The notes under the pieces: model-generated
Database searches by the model: none
What the model was told of the DNA's origin: nothing
The model's input: the letters and a program-made list of their open reading frames with translations, nothing else
Assembly: GCA_009778165.1 (NCBI GenBank)
Contig: WRKF01000189.1
Location: 1 to 64,000 of the forward strand
DNA length: 64,000 bases
Origin: Defluviitaleaceae bacterium
GTDB taxonomy: Bacteria > Bacillota > Clostridia > Lachnospirales > UBA5962
Direction: 5' to 3'
Part shown: one piece after another, positions 6,449-12,346 of the stretch
Position numbering within the stretch: position 1 is the first letter of the stretch
Layout: every line of letters begins with the position of its first letter
Position numbers and translations under genes: made by a program

Positions 6449-6477
6449 TTGACAGCAAAGGGTATATCATTTACAAT
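6449..6477 (+). promoter_or_regulatory. Sigma-A promoter of the rnf operon
   Basis: TTGACA at 6449-6454, a 17-bp spacer and TACAAT at 6472-6477. The predicted transcript start near 6484 gives a leader of about 30 nt before the GTG of rnfC, with AGAGGTGA as ribosome binding site. Confidence 0.85.
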
Positions 6478-6514: not shown

Positions 6515-7810
6515 GTGGGTTTTTTTAGCGGACAAAACTGCATAAAGCTAGATATGCAAAAAACGTTAACAAACAGCAAACCTGTGTCGGAATATACCCC
6601 AAAACTAGTGGCTATCCCCCTAAAAAACATGGCGTTTGAGGACTTTACAACACATGTAAATGTGGGAGATGTTGTTAAAATTGGCACCAAACTCGCAACA
6701 GGCAACGATCATAATAAACTGCCTTTGTTTTCCAGTGTTTCAGGCACAGTAACAGCAATAGAAAAAAGAGATCATATCTCTCTAAAAAAAACGAACCACA
6801 TTATTATCGAAAATGATTTTAAAGACGAAAAAGAATTACTTTTTGACCCTGTAGAAGATATTTTGTCATTTACAGGTGATGAGATTAAAAAACACATGAA
6901 AGATGCAGGCGTTCTTGGTCTGAGCGGCAGCGGCACGCCTACCTTTACAAAATTCCGTAACACAAAAAATGTAACATCTATACTAATCAATGCTATAGAG
7001 GATGAACAATTTATAACGGCAGACGAATATAATATAACCACATACCCTGCACTTCTTGCAAAAGGTGCTTTAACTTTGCTGAAAGCGGCAGATGCCAAGG
7101 AGTGTGTAATAGTTATAAGAGAAAGCAACAAAGAAGGTTTCGAGAAACTGTCCGCAATTTTAGGGGATTTCCAAGAAATAAAAATCACCAAAATGCCGGA
7201 CATATACCCAATGGGCTTTGAACGAACATTAATAAAAAAAATATGGGACAAAACATTTAAAGTTTTGCCGATAGAGGCAGGCGTTATATCCACAAACGTT
7301 TCTACAGTAATAGAATTTGCCAGAACACTAACTAATGCTTTGCCGCTATATGAGCGTGTTATAACTTTGGCTGGAGATGGTTTTATAAACCAACAAAATG
7401 TAAAAGTGCGTATCGGCACAATACTTTCTGATATAGTAGCAGAAATGGGCGGTTATGCCGCTGGTGTTCCCAAAAACGCAAGGCTGGTACACGGCGGACC
7501 CCTCCGCGGCAGTGCAGTAATTACAGATAACCTTTCCGTAACTCCTGTTACAAACGGCTTTGTGTGCATAGCAAATGCCGAACACGAGCAATCCCCTTGC
7601 TCCCGTTGCGGTGCATGTATAAGACACTGCCCGGCAGGATTGCAACCAATACAGATTATTGGAGCATTTAAGCTAAAAAACAAAGAAACACTTAAACAGC
7701 TCGGTGCTGATAAATGTATAGAATGTGGCGTTTGCAGTTTTGTTTGCTCATCATTTATAGATGTTTCCGATAATGCAAAAAAAGCGAAAGCCTTTACACT
7801 ACAAAAATAA
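6515..7810 (+). CDS. rnfC: Rnf complex subunit RnfC
   Basis: 431 residues. The peripheral subunit that carries the NADH/FMN site and two [4Fe-4S] clusters of the Rnf complex, which couples reduced ferredoxin oxidation by NAD+ to Na+ or H+ export. The two cluster motifs are at the C-terminus: CSRCGACIRHCP (about 361-372) and CIECGVCSFVC (about 402-412). The start is GTG at 6515, with AGAGGTGA seven bases upstream. First gene of a tight rnfCDGEAB operon. It has the short, bacterial-anaerobe form without the long C-terminal repeats of gamma-proteobacterial RnfC. Confidence 0.96.
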   Translation: MGFFSGQNCIKLDMQKTLTNSKPVSEYTPKLVAIPLKNMAFEDFTTHVNVGDVVKIGTKLATGNDHNKLPLFSSVSGTVTAIEKRDHISLKKTNHIIIENDFKDEKELLFDPVEDILSFTGDEIKKHMKDAGVLGLSGSGTPTFTKFRNTKNVTSILINAIEDEQFITADEYNITTYPALLAKGALTLLKAADAKECVIVIRESNKEGFEKLSAILGDFQEIKITKMPDIYPMGFERTLIKKIWDKTFKVLPIEAGVISTNVSTVIEFARTLTNALPLYERVITLAGDGFINQQNVKVRIGTILSDIVAEMGGYAAGVPKNARLVHGGPLRGSAVITDNLSVTPVTNGFVCIANAEHEQSPCSRCGACIRHCPAGLQPIQIIGAFKLKNKETLKQLGADKCIECGVCSFVCSSFIDVSDNAKKAKAFTLQK

Positions 7811-7834
7811 ACAACGAAAGGAATTGAAAAAACA

Positions 7835-8953
7835 ATGAACTTTCCTTTAAAACCCGCCCCACACACAAAAGTCGGGAACAGACACGAAGACATTGTTGCA
7901 ACTGTTATTAAAGCCGCCCTTTTTGTTGCGGTTTGGGCTATTTATAACCGCTTTATGGTATTTGGCATAGAAACTGCCGCCCATGTTGCACTGATGATTT
8001 TAGTCGCCTGCACAGCCAGCACTATTGCCCATCTCGGTTTTCATATGGCAATGGATGCACTGGAAAAAAAGAGTTTTACCTCATTTAAAGAGCGTATTGC
8101 CCCCTACAAACACAAAATAAGAACGGGGGAAACAGTGGTAACAGGGCTTATTTTGGCTCTTGCCATGCAGCCTACTGCTCATCTGTATGTTGTAGCTATT
8201 GTTGCGATTTTTGCAGAAATTATAGGCAAACTTATATACGGTGGCTATGGGCAAAATATATTTAACCCCGTTGCAGTGGGTCTTATTTTTAACGCTCTCA
8301 CCTTTGGCGGAACCGTTTTGACAGTAGGGTATCTGCCTGATATTATTACGCAACCCACACCGCTTGCGGCACTTACCACTGCAAACTGGATTATGACACC
8401 ACAGGAGCTGGCAAACTATTTCGCTAATACCGGTGGTATAATAAACATGTTTTTAGGCACAGTACCTGGCTCTGTTGGCGAAACATCTCGGTTGGCTCTG
8501 CTGGTGGCGTTGGGGTACATGTGTTACAAAAAAGTTGCTGATTGGGTAACTCCTATATTTTATATGGGTACGGTTTATGTAATAATGCTTGTATACGGAT
8601 TCATCATAGGTGCCGGTTTTTGGTATCCTGTTGCTCATTTGCTCACCGGTGGTATTGTGTTTGGTGCAGTCTTTTTGGCAAGCGATCCCATTACAACACC
8701 CATTAACCGTCAGGGCAAAGTAATATTTGCGGTGGGGCTTGCCATGTTTACATTGCTTATTAGGCTTACTGCTTCACCAACAGAAGGGGTTGCGTTTTCT
8801 ATTTTGCTCATGAACATGCTAACGCCCTTGATAGACTCCAAAACAGCAAATGTAACGACAGAAAACACAAACAAAAAAATACGTAGTTCCGCTATTGCCT
8901 TTGCAATAGCAACAGTTGTAGTCATTGGGTTCACCGTTTTAACCCAATTATAA
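7835..8953 (+). CDS. rnfD: Rnf complex subunit RnfD
   Basis: 372 residues, polytopic membrane protein of the NqrB/RnfD family. About nine or ten hydrophobic segments are visible between residues 25 and 370. The conserved ASDPITTPINRQGK near residue 285 contains the Thr that covalently carries FMN in this family, and GGYGQNIFNPVAVG (about 140-153) is the other hallmark. It is the likely ion-translocating partner of RnfG. It lies 24 bp after rnfC. Confidence 0.96.
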   Translation: MNFPLKPAPHTKVGNRHEDIVATVIKAALFVAVWAIYNRFMVFGIETAAHVALMILVACTASTIAHLGFHMAMDALEKKSFTSFKERIAPYKHKIRTGETVVTGLILALAMQPTAHLYVVAIVAIFAEIIGKLIYGGYGQNIFNPVAVGLIFNALTFGGTVLTVGYLPDIITQPTPLAALTTANWIMTPQELANYFANTGGIINMFLGTVPGSVGETSRLALLVALGYMCYKKVADWVTPIFYMGTVYVIMLVYGFIIGAGFWYPVAHLLTGGIVFGAVFLASDPITTPINRQGKVIFAVGLAMFTLLIRLTASPTEGVAFSILLMNMLTPLIDSKTANVTTENTNKKIRSSAIAFAIATVVVIGFTVLTQL

Positions 8954-8998
8954 TTATATCATTAAACAATAAATAATGATGAATGATGGAAGTGACAT

Positions 8999-9523
8999 AT
9001 GAAAAAAATAATTTACCTTAGCCTTTTTCTTGGGCTTGTGTCTGCTGTTGTTACAGGCGCAATGGCTGGCGTTAACACCATAACAGCTCCCATTATTGCC
9101 GAAGCTCAGTACCAAGCCTTTAGAGCGGCAGTTAACTTTGCGTTTCCCACCGCCGACAATTTTGAAATACTGGCAGAAGGAGAAGAAATAGAATCCCCCC
9201 ATATCATACAGATATTAGAAGTTTTTGAAGGTGGGGAGCCGATAGGTTTTATCTATCACAAAATTGTACCTGGTTTTGGAGGTCCTATAAACTACATGAT
9301 GGGGATAGACTTTGATGGCAATTTTACTAGCTTTTCTGTGCTGTCCCATAGCGAAACCCCCGGGTTTGGCGCCCGCATAGTAGATGAGCCGGATTTTGCC
9401 GCAAGTTTAATAGGCACTCATGCCGGCAGCCAAATAGACATTTTGACCGGGGCTACAAACACAACTACACCAATAGTAAGAGCTATCGGTGAACTGCACC
9501 AAGACTTCATGAACAGGAGGTAG
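8999..9523 (+). CDS. rnfG: Rnf complex subunit RnfG (FMN-binding)
   Basis: 174 residues. One N-terminal membrane helix (about 5-25) and an extracytoplasmic FMN-binding domain. LTGATNTTTPIV near residue 150 is the S/T-G-A-T motif whose Thr holds FMN covalently; PGFGARI at about 120 is also conserved. Shorter than the roughly 200-residue proteobacterial forms but complete in domain terms. The gene is four bases from rnfE. Confidence 0.95.
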   Translation: MKKIIYLSLFLGLVSAVVTGAMAGVNTITAPIIAEAQYQAFRAAVNFAFPTADNFEILAEGEEIESPHIIQILEVFEGGEPIGFIYHKIVPGFGGPINYMMGIDFDGNFTSFSVLSHSETPGFGARIVDEPDFAASLIGTHAGSQIDILTGATNTTTPIVRAIGELHQDFMNRR

Positions 9524-9526
9524 GGT

Positions 9527-10207
9527 ATGGAAGCAAAACACAAAAAATACAACTATAAAGAAGTTTTAACGGCAGGGATATTTAAAGAAAATCCTATTTT
9601 TAAGCTCTTGCTTTCCTTGTGTCCTGCTCTTGGTGTTACTGCTGTTTTGGTCAACTCCGTTGGGCTTGGAGTCATTATTTTAGTTTCGTTGATAATGACA
9701 AACACTATAATAGCAATAGTAGGAAAGTTTGTTCCGGATGAAATCAGAATACCCGCCTACATTACTATCATTGCCGGTGTTATAACTATTATGGAAATGA
9801 TGGTACACGCATTTATGCCCGATTTGTTTGCGGCTCTTGGGGTCTTTCTTTCCCTTGTTGTTGTAAACTGCATTATAATGGGCCGCGCAGAGGCTTTTGC
9901 AGCAAAAAACACTGTTTTGGCATCTATATACGATGCAATAGGCAATGGCTTGGGTATAATATTCGCCCTTGCTGTTATAGCTTTTTTTAGAGAGTTTTTT
10001 GGCAGGGGTTTTGTAGATTTCGGCTTTTTTAGACTAAATGTGTTCCCGCAAGAATATGCAATTGGCTTTCTTGTACAACCAATGGGCGCATTTTTAATGC
10101 TAGGGATTATAGTCGGCATAATGTCTACCATTGCTGTAGGCAAAAATAACCAAAAAAAAGCCGCCCTAAAATCACAAAAAACCGCTACCACTAAGGCGAA
10201 AGGATAG
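9527..10207 (+). CDS. rnfE: Rnf complex subunit RnfE
   Basis: 226 residues, six predicted membrane helices, NqrD/RnfE family. Opens with the typical FKENPIFKLLLSLCPALGV, and has NCIIMGRAEAFA in the middle, whose Cys is part of the membrane-embedded iron site shared with RnfA. The Lys-rich C-terminal tail (about 204-226) is cytoplasmic. AGGAGG lies before the ATG. Confidence 0.96.
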   Translation: MEAKHKKYNYKEVLTAGIFKENPIFKLLLSLCPALGVTAVLVNSVGLGVIILVSLIMTNTIIAIVGKFVPDEIRIPAYITIIAGVITIMEMMVHAFMPDLFAALGVFLSLVVVNCIIMGRAEAFAAKNTVLASIYDAIGNGLGIIFALAVIAFFREFFGRGFVDFGFFRLNVFPQEYAIGFLVQPMGAFLMLGIIVGIMSTIAVGKNNQKKAALKSQKTATTKAKG

Positions 10208-10217
10208 GAGGGTATAA

Positions 10218-10793
10218 ATGGAGTTGTTTGGAATTTTTATAGGAGCAACCCTTGTTGCCAACATTTTGCTGGCTCAATTTTTAGGTATATGCTCTTTTAT
10301 TGGGGTTAGCAAAAAATCTAGCTCTGCACTTGGGATGGGAGCAGCAGTTGTTTTCGTTATAACTATTAGCTCCGCCGTAACATGGTTAATTTTTCACTTT
10401 GTGTTGGTGCCATATCACCTAGAGTTTATGCGTACTATAGTATTTATACTTGTTATTGCAAGCCTTGTGCAATTTGTAGAAATGTTTATGAAAAAGTACA
10501 TGGAGGGGTTGTACAAAGCCCTGGGCGTATATTTGCCGCTTATAACGACAAACTGTGCCGTTCTTGGTGCGGCATTGCTTAATATAGACAGAACACTAAG
10601 TTTTGTGCAAACTATAGTTAGCGGGTTTGGTATCTCCTTTGGGTATGCCCTTGTTATTTTTGTTTTTTCCACAATAAGGGAACGCTTGGAGCTATCTAAC
10701 ACTCGCGAGGGTTTTAAAGGGGTACCTATTGCCCTTGTTACTGCATCTATTATGGCGATGGCTTTCTTTGGCTTTTCAGGATTGGGAGGTTAA
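10218..10793 (+). CDS. rnfA: Rnf complex subunit RnfA
   Basis: 191 residues, six membrane helices, inverted-topology partner of RnfE. FLGICSFIGVSKK near residue 22 and TTNCAVLGAALLN near residue 110 hold the two conserved cysteines that, with those of RnfE, bind the intramembrane iron centre. Length is the normal 190-193. The ribosome binding site is AGGAGG. rnfB follows after three bases. Confidence 0.97.
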   Translation: MELFGIFIGATLVANILLAQFLGICSFIGVSKKSSSALGMGAAVVFVITISSAVTWLIFHFVLVPYHLEFMRTIVFILVIASLVQFVEMFMKKYMEGLYKALGVYLPLITTNCAVLGAALLNIDRTLSFVQTIVSGFGISFGYALVIFVFSTIRERLELSNTREGFKGVPIALVTASIMAMAFFGFSGLGG

Positions 10794-10796
10794 GAT

Positions 10797-11117
10797 ATGA
10801 TACAGACTATTTTTATACCTATTCTGATTGTGCTGGCTATTGGCCTTGTTTTAGGTGCGGTGCTTGGTGTTGCCGACAAATTTTTAAAAGTAGCGTTAGA
10901 TGAAAGATTAGAAACACTAATAAAACTGCTACCCGGTTTTAACTGCGGTGCTTGTGGTAACCCCGGTTGTGCAGGCCACGCACAATCAATACTTGCCGGC
11001 ACAGGCAAAATAAGAGGCTGCAAGCCAATGAAAGATGAGCAAGAAGCAGCGATAAGGGAATACTTGGCGAAAGCCCCGGACGCAGAGGGGAATTTGCCGG
11101 ATTTGTCTAAGCTGTAA
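10797..11117 (+). CDS. rnfB: RnfB-like protein, short form (lacks the ferredoxin domain)
   Basis: Only 106 residues. The N-terminal membrane helix (about 3-25) and the first iron-sulfur motif are intact: PGFNCGACGNPGCAGHA, with C51, C54, C59 and a later C76. Typical RnfB proteins are about 180-330 residues and continue with two or more ferredoxin-like [4Fe-4S] clusters that accept electrons from ferredoxin. Here the reading frame stops after a Leu-Ser-Lys-Leu end, and none of the three forward frames downstream encodes a ferredoxin motif; a Uma2 gene starts 11 bases later. Either the complex uses a minimal RnfB, or the ferredoxin module is encoded elsewhere, or the gene was cut and sealed by the Uma2 insertion. 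Confidence 0.85.
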   Translation: MIQTIFIPILIVLAIGLVLGAVLGVADKFLKVALDERLETLIKLLPGFNCGACGNPGCAGHAQSILAGTGKIRGCKPMKDEQEAAIREYLAKAPDAEGNLPDLSKL

Positions 11118-11870
11118 AGGTGGAATATATGGCAGCACTGCAAGAGCAAAGGCGACCAAAACAGCAAAAACAAACATACACAGACTATGCAAGTTGGAAA
11201 GATGATGGCAACCGCTACGAGCTTATAGACGGAGCGCCGCATATGATGGCGGCTCCCGGCATTCTTCACCAAAGTATACAGATTAATATAAGTTCTATAA
11301 TATGGCATTATCTGAGGGGAAAGGATTGCGTGGTTCTCTCCTCCCCTTTAGATGTACGCTTAAACTATAACGATGGTGACGATACAGTGGTACAGCCCGA
11401 TATTGCTATTATATGCGACAAAAGTAAAATCGCACAAGAGGGCATACGAGGTGTGCCTGATATGGTAGTAGAAATAATATCACCCGGTAGCGCAAAAATG
11501 GATAGGATAATAAAATATAAAAAATACGAAAGTGCAGGGGTGAAAGAATACTGGATAGTGAACCCAACAGACCAAACTGTAGAAACTTATACATTGGAAC
11601 AGGGCAGTTACCAAAAGTGTGTATATGCAGGTTCTGACAGTGTTCCAATCGGTATATTGGATGGTTTTTCTATGAAAATAACGGATATTTTTGTTGTGTT
11701 TTAAACAGGCTGGTACTAAGTTGTAAAGGTGGAATATATGGCAGCACTGCAAGAGCAAAGGCAACCAAAACAGCAAAAACAAACATACACAGACTATGCA
11801 AGTTGGAAAGATGATGGCAACCGCTACGAGCTTATAGACGGAGTGCCGCATATGATGGCAGCTCCCAACT
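11115..11870 (+). repeat. Direct repeat from the Uma2 gene duplication (5' blocks)
   Basis: About 150 bp including the ribosome binding site and first 50 codons at 11115-11262 recur with only a few changes at 11724-11871. A second near-identical block spans roughly 11345-11590 and 11955-12190. Between them the copies differ greatly, so the duplication is a mosaic. Confidence 0.85.
11129..11704 (+). CDS. Uma2-family putative endonuclease, copy 1
   Basis: About 191 residues from ATG 11129, which has AAAGGTGG at a good distance; the frame extends nine bases upstream to a GTG that lies inside that ribosome binding site. DUF820/Uma2 proteins have a PD-(D/E)XK nuclease fold and are of unsettled function. 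Visible hallmarks: DDTVVQPDIAIIC (about 89-101), VVEIISPGSAKMDR, then KKYESAGVKEYWIV with the conserved Lys and Glu. It starts 11 bases after rnfB, so is probably co-transcribed with rnf. Copy 2 follows directly and is nearly identical at both ends. Confidence 0.85.
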   Translation: MAALQEQRRPKQQKQTYTDYASWKDDGNRYELIDGAPHMMAAPGILHQSIQINISSIIWHYLRGKDCVVLSSPLDVRLNYNDGDDTVVQPDIAIICDKSKIAQEGIRGVPDMVVEIISPGSAKMDRIIKYKKYESAGVKEYWIVNPTDQTVETYTLEQGSYQKCVYAGSDSVPIGILDGFSMKITDIFVVF

Positions 11871-12346
11871 TTTCTCACCAAATTGTATTAAGTAATCTAA
11901 ATATTATAATCGGGTCTTATTTGAAGGGGAAAAATTGTATAGCAGTACCATCCCCTTTAGATGTACGTTTAAACTATAACGATGGTGACGATACAGTTGT
12001 ACAACCCGATATTGCTATTATATGTGACAAAAGTAAAATCGCACAAGAGGGTATACGAGGTATACCCGACATGATAGTAGAAATAATATCCCCCGGTAGC
12101 GCAAAAATGGATAGGATAATAAAATACAAAAAATACGAAAGTGCAGGGGTGAAAGAATACTGGATAGTGAACCCAACAGACCAAACTGTAGAAGCACATA
12201 CATTGGAGAAAGGCATTTACCGAAAAAATGTGTATGCAAAAATTGGCAGTGTACCAATTACCATACTGGATGGTTTTTTTGTGGCGATAGAGGATATTTT
12301 TGAAAATATACACTATAGCTATCCTATAGAAGGGGGCGCGACATGA
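11738..12346 (+). CDS. Uma2-family putative endonuclease, copy 2
   Basis: About 202 residues from ATG 11738. A tandem duplicate of the gene before it: the first 50 residues and the block around the nuclease motif (LNYNDGDDTVVQPDIAII to about residue 155) are almost the same, while a central block (about residues 49-75) and the C-terminus have diverged strongly. The catalytic-core residues are kept. Its end overlaps the start of the RtcB gene by four bases (ATGA), so the two are translationally coupled. Confidence 0.85.
   Translation: MAALQEQRQPKQQKQTYTDYASWKDDGNRYELIDGVPHMMAAPNFSHQIVLSNLNIIIGSYLKGKNCIAVPSPLDVRLNYNDGDDTVVQPDIAIICDKSKIAQEGIRGIPDMIVEIISPGSAKMDRIIKYKKYESAGVKEYWIVNPTDQTVEAHTLEKGIYRKNVYAKIGSVPITILDGFFVAIEDIFENIHYSYPIEGGAT

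Follow-up and report, generated by a model that had tools for sequence, protein, structure and literature searches.

A short RnfB without the ferredoxin-accepting arm, conserved across genera, points to a minimal form of the Rnf complex

An Rnf complex whose RnfB has no ferredoxin-accepting domain raises the question of where electrons enter. Such a complex is encoded in a 64,000-nucleotide stretch of contig WRKF01000189.1 of a Defluviitaleaceae bacterium, referred to here as the window. The six Rnf subunits C, D, G, E, A and B are encoded together at 6515-11117, with Pfam support, and the translated open reading frame (ORF) of rnfB (10797-11117, plus strand) is 106 aa long. In characterised complexes, two to seven clusters are found in the C-terminal domain of RnfB, which accepts the electrons of ferredoxin (2025 review, PMC12174285). 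In the Rnf of Acetobacterium woodii, the presumed docking site for ferredoxin lies at clusters B1-B2, from which electrons travel via B3-B7 to B8; B8 reduces the [2Fe-2S] cluster of RnfA/E, and removal of the B8 cysteines abolished activity and growth (PMC11889175). The features of the locus are as follows.

6449-6477, plus strand: promoter-like site TTGACA-17-TACAAT, 11/12 match; sites of this kind are no more frequent in the region than expected by chance
6515-7810, plus strand: rnfC, 431 aa; eight Fe-S cysteines kept, NAD-site residues altered
7835-8953, plus strand: rnfD, 372 aa, Pfam-supported
8999-9523, plus strand: rnfG, 174 aa, flavinylation motif DILTGATNT
9527-10207, plus strand: rnfE, 226 aa; C32 and C115 conserved
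10218-10793, plus strand: rnfA, 191 aa; C25 and C113 conserved
10797-11117, plus strand: rnfB, short form, 106 aa; transmembrane helix and one [4Fe-4S] shuttle domain, ferredoxin arm absent
10929-11027, plus strand: PF04060 four-cysteine [4Fe-4S] motif in rnfB, residues 45-77
11107-12015, plus strand: tandem repeat (11107-11406 and 11716-12015, 87% identical) spanning the start of two Uma2-family genes, outside the complex

The first-pass annotation had described RnfB as reduced to 106 residues without a ferredoxin domain, and our analysis bears this out. The protein consists of one N-terminal hydrophobic transmembrane helix, one PF04060 domain with the four-cysteine motif CGACGNPGC...C, and a tail of about 25 residues finishing in PDAEGNLPDLSKL. 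The PF04060 FeS domain is its sole Pfam match (37.5 bits), and its score against the NCBIfam model TIGR01944 for rnfB (52.5) lies below the cut-off of 68.7. No C-terminal ferredoxin-like domain with at least two [4Fe-4S] clusters was found in RnfB or in the neighbouring frames. As previously noted, the missing clusters are not supplied downstream, since the next genes, directly 3' of rnfB, are two tandem Uma2-family ORFs (11120-11704 and 11729-12346). This Uma2-family gene has been duplicated in tandem (11107-12346), and the repeat unit takes in the last 11 bases of rnfB.

Residues 1-89 of the window RnfB align with residues 1-89 of the A. woodii protein (9ERI chain B, 333 aa), and the window protein was also aligned to the RnfB of 7ZC6. 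The AlphaFold model of the 106 residues has a pLDDT of 86.5; in structure comparison (E 0.004-0.012, probability 1.00), it matched best the RnfB of 9ERI and the [4Fe-4S] domain at the N-terminus of the corrinoid iron-sulfur protein. Judged from these alignments, what is retained corresponds to the transmembrane helix and the B8 shuttle domain in A. woodii, and the input domain of two to seven clusters is absent. The short RnfB keeps the essential final transfer step but has no part of the entry arm.

The rest of the operon had been read as five complete subunits behind a strong promoter. The lengths are indeed complete, but the NAD site of RnfC is not canonical; likewise, the promoter sequence is a good match, but the region holds 19 promoter-like sites where 17.5 are expected by chance. 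Apart from RnfC, no dicluster-ferredoxin ORF is present in the rnf part of the window, and the window operon, made up of six Rnf-type genes and followed by the Uma2 genes, contains no NqrF-type FAD/[2Fe-2S] NADH dehydrogenase subunit.

The short form is not confined to this locus. A second complete rnfCDGEAB operon on contig C112 of the same genome encodes an RnfB of 109 aa. Neither of the two outcomes that would have spoken against the first-pass annotation, a full-length RnfB in close relatives or a segment missed by the assembly at this locus, was observed; genomes of the same family have 106-aa homologues (72% and 43% identity) with the same tail. The proposed search for RnfBs of 100-110 residues in relatives found proteins of about this length, conserved across many genera. 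Among the nearest short RnfBs compared, pN (~0.19-0.29) is well under pS (~0.67-0.84), which indicates purifying selection; Ka/Ks is ~0.13-0.17, with Ks saturated.

The distribution of the short form was surveyed by scanning contigs of one genome per GTDB species; the short RnfBs so found extend for 37-65 residues from their first cluster cysteine to the C-terminus. Most genomes of the order have an RnfB of ~260-330 aa, so that the short form is a departure there and not the rule. It was found in termite-gut Defluviitaleaceae metagenome-assembled genomes (MAGs), in Erysipelotrichaceae (Holdemanella, Dielma, Merdibacter, Faecalitalea, Floccifex, Traorella), in CHKCI006, Candidatus Izemoplasma, Acholeplasmatales and Inordinaticella, and in Thermotogales (Thermosipho, Marinitoga and a Thermotogaceae MAG) and one Treponema. 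The RnfB of Haloplasma has two tandem PF04060 shuttle domains in 183-187 aa and no ferredoxin arm (L100:7992-8543; L108:1978-2541). Nearly all short-RnfB operons with enough flanking sequence have the canonical order rnfCDGEAB.

Full-length RnfB was detected in none of 21 short-RnfB genomes on contigs of at least 3 kb, an absence that is not absolute given the incompleteness of MAGs. Other PF04060 matches were considered as candidates and rejected: they are proteins of ~390-420 aa among hydrogenase-type genes and hydrogenase-like proteins of ~560-600 aa. In a tree of concatenated RnfA, E, D and C (46 operons, 1158 columns), the 21 Bacillota/Mycoplasmatota short-RnfB operons are set apart from the rest by a branch supported at 100/100, and a PGPDG tail is specific to the short-RnfB clade. 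This clade of gut and sediment bacteria, to which the window organism belongs, spans termite-gut Defluviitaleaceae, Erysipelotrichaceae (Holdemanella, Dielma, Merdibacter, Faecalitalea), Izemoplasma, Haloplasma and Acholeplasmatales. The short forms of Thermotogota and Treponema are placed elsewhere in the best tree, which suggests independent origins in these groups; the AU test (p 0.29) does not, however, reject one shared origin for all short RnfBs. Occurrence in many genera, membership of one clade, purifying selection and the lack of full-length RnfB in the same genomes support the earlier suggestion that this is a real minimal Rnf. We found no description of a short or truncated RnfB in the literature searched, the coverage of which leaves out most subscription journals.

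Related modules without rnfC were also noticed. At L038:4817-10272 (G016) and L175:11-4155 (Izemoplasma), cydA/cydB-like genes, recognised by eye (cydB-like only in the stretch covered of L175), are followed directly by rnfD-G-E-A and a 113-aa rnfB, with no rnfC in the stretch covered, an arrangement suggestive of a quinol oxidase joined to an Rnf-like module. At L067:758-8099 and L068:6518-13935 (G038, G069), rnfDGEA is accompanied by an rnfB of 91-92 aa and by a long rnfG (334-356 aa), seemingly with two FMN-binding domains; these modules adjoin cytochrome c biogenesis-like genes, and L067 also has a CxxCH cytochrome. Large extensions occur in Traorella (L078) and Dielma (L090), with RnfD of 589 and 619 aa and RnfE of 353 and 366 aa.

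The path downstream of RnfB is well preserved. The [2Fe-2S] cysteines (C25 and C113 of RnfA, C32 and C115 of RnfE) are kept in 24 of 24 short-type operons, and the eight cysteines of the two RnfC [4Fe-4S] clusters in every one examined. In A. woodii a C-terminal helix of RnfC contacts RnfB; loss of this helix was considered and discarded, the tail length being unchanged (median 22 versus 22.5). The RnfC FMN/NAD motif (GGAGFP...K; NxxECEPxxxxD) is largely kept outside the termite lineage, and NAD is consequently the likely partner there. The window RnfC, which scores above the TIGR01945 cut-off (280.8 bits), carries the changes F141T, C163D and P165Q at positions at least 90% conserved in long-type RnfC, and Y at 172 where R is expected; it retains G135, K146, N159, E162, E164, Y231, G234 and E236. 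NAD-site residues are altered in six termite-gut operons (window 6515-7810, L035, L036, L065, L066 and L070), and the GGAGFP..K loop of L065 is largely deleted. By analogy with complex I, the phenylalanine lost in this lineage would be a residue stacking on NADH. For the window organism the NAD end of Rnf is thus uncertain, and FMN binding by RnfC looks possible.

Since the input domain is missing and everything downstream is conserved, electrons must enter by a different, putative route. The balance of evidence tips slightly towards a conserved minimal Rnf in which a soluble low-potential carrier, probably a 2[4Fe-4S] ferredoxin, reduces the shuttle directly, a docking that we infer. The PF04060 domain of the corrinoid iron-sulfur protein is reducible by ferredoxin in trans, which makes direct ferredoxin docking on the short RnfB chemically reasonable. 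Donors exist, as the genome encodes a free 55-aa 2[4Fe-4S] ferredoxin (contig C139), PFOR-like and [FeFe]-hydrogenase-like proteins identified by reading of the sequence, and ApbE. The first of these answers the earlier call for a separate ferredoxin gene elsewhere in the genome, and the associated proposals, docking of ferredoxin at another site or replacement of the lost domain by a free ferredoxin, are plausible. Neither a linked ferredoxin gene, in the flanks examined, nor a split-off ferredoxin domain nearby was found at the short-RnfB loci, the one exception being an ORF of 55 aa in L076, distant from rnfB. The unlinked donor could also be a protein other than ferredoxin.

By this route, the shuttle cluster would exchange electrons with the carrier, for which a clostridial 2[4Fe-4S] ferredoxin like that of 55 aa is the likeliest candidate, and the flexible one-cluster B8 shuttle would pass them on to the [2Fe-2S] cluster lying between RnfA and RnfE. 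From there they would take the customary U-shaped path through RnfA/E, the FMN of RnfG, the flavins of RnfD and RnfC, coupled to Na+ or H+ movement. Given the retained RnfC motif, most of the clade probably still has ferredoxin:NAD oxidoreduction as its net reaction.

Most Bacillota/Mycoplasmatota short-RnfB operons carry a further component, an unlisted ORF of 51-82 aa between rnfA and rnfB (e.g. L035:11522-11677). It encodes one hydrophobic helix followed by N-x5-P and C-x2-C-x4/5-C, with N24, P30, C39, C42 and C48 invariant. None of 36 long-RnfB operons has it; a string flagged in L140 of that set is a 25-residue chance match. The window operon, with 3 bases between rnfA and rnfB, also lacks this ORF; the C112 operon holds the only copy in that genome, which could act in trans. 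The protein was not identified as NqrM, as no PF04400 match was obtained in ten members and none above cut-off in 17 genomes. The profile closest to it is that of PF12669, a family of FeoB-associated Cys-rich proteins (best E 2e-4, under cut-off). We infer a role as an iron-sulfur assembly or electron-transfer helper.

Comparison with known systems places this complex close to the Rnf of A. woodii (PDB 9ERI-9ERL) and Clostridium tetanomorphum (7ZC6). These share the six subunits with the window type, RnfB 1-89 is aligned to the transmembrane helix and B8, and the RnfA/E cysteines and RnfC clusters are kept. The window type differs in having no multi-[4Fe-4S] input domain in RnfB and altered NAD-site residues in RnfC, and most of its short-RnfB relatives in adding the small Cys-rich membrane protein. 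Na+-NQR likewise combines an RnfA/E/D/G-type core with a changed electron-input module and relies for its maturation on NqrM, a small Cys-rich membrane protein; however, the window type has no NqrF, its RnfC has both [4Fe-4S] clusters whereas NqrA has none, and the small protein of short-RnfB operons does not match the NqrM family. The N-terminal domain of the corrinoid iron-sulfur protein (AcsC) has the PF04060 fold in common with the short RnfB, but AcsC is a soluble methyl-transfer protein and RnfB part of a membrane pump. The NQR/RNF-like flavinylated systems of Meheust et al. 2021 (PMC8238504) also recombine partial Rnf/Nqr modules with other electron routes, but they are single-path systems with an RnfD-NqrF-type fusion, whereas the two-path core is retained in full in the window type.

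The main rival to direct ferredoxin docking is a dedicated non-ferredoxin input protein encoded in trans, such as a flavoprotein or a hydrogenase or dehydrogenase subunit, docking on the short RnfB. NQR arose from RNF by replacement of the RnfB input module, so that the core tolerates input swaps (PMC12174285), and both the clade-specific tail and the small Cys-rich membrane protein could be docking or assembly parts; the altered NAD site of the termite-lineage RnfC fits such a donor as well. However, no oxidoreductase is consistently adjacent to the operons, whose neighbours vary by lineage, and most of the clade keeps a canonical RnfC, as in ferredoxin:NAD Rnf. We therefore consider such a donor possible but rather unlikely.

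The loss of NAD-pocket residues from RnfC means that the overall reaction in the window organism may not be ferredoxin:NAD oxidoreduction. It is conceivable, though we hold it only tentatively, that both cytosolic sockets have been refitted in the termite-gut Defluviitaleaceae, the intact ion-pumping core running with a donor and an acceptor that are both new, as neither a ferredoxin:NAD Rnf nor an NADH:quinone Nqr. The same changes, including the deleted loop of L065, could instead mean that the complex of this lineage is being lost or is partly functional, with input arm and NAD site both eroding. The presence of two intact operons in one genome, the conserved RnfA/E and Fe-S cysteines, the purifying selection on rnfB and the canonical RnfC of the rest of the clade argue against erosion, which appears improbable. 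Finally, the end of rnfB falls at the tandem repeat, but we dismiss an assembly or sequencing artefact, or a truncation by insertion of the Uma2 genes, as extremely improbable, because homologues in other assemblies have equal length and an equal DLSKL/DLSKI tail, relatives without downstream Uma2 genes stop at the same RnfB residue, and the second rnfB of the same genome is likewise short.

A conserved minimal Rnf reduced directly by a soluble carrier bears on current models, in which the polyferredoxin arm of RnfB is the ferredoxin entry site. A clade living without this arm, cultured gut bacteria included, would make the one-cluster shuttle domain the minimal input unit, and it represents a natural deletion for testing the way in which ferredoxin interacts with the pump. 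Genome annotation deduces energy conservation by Rnf from the presence of the genes, and complexes with a short RnfB may not run the standard reaction.
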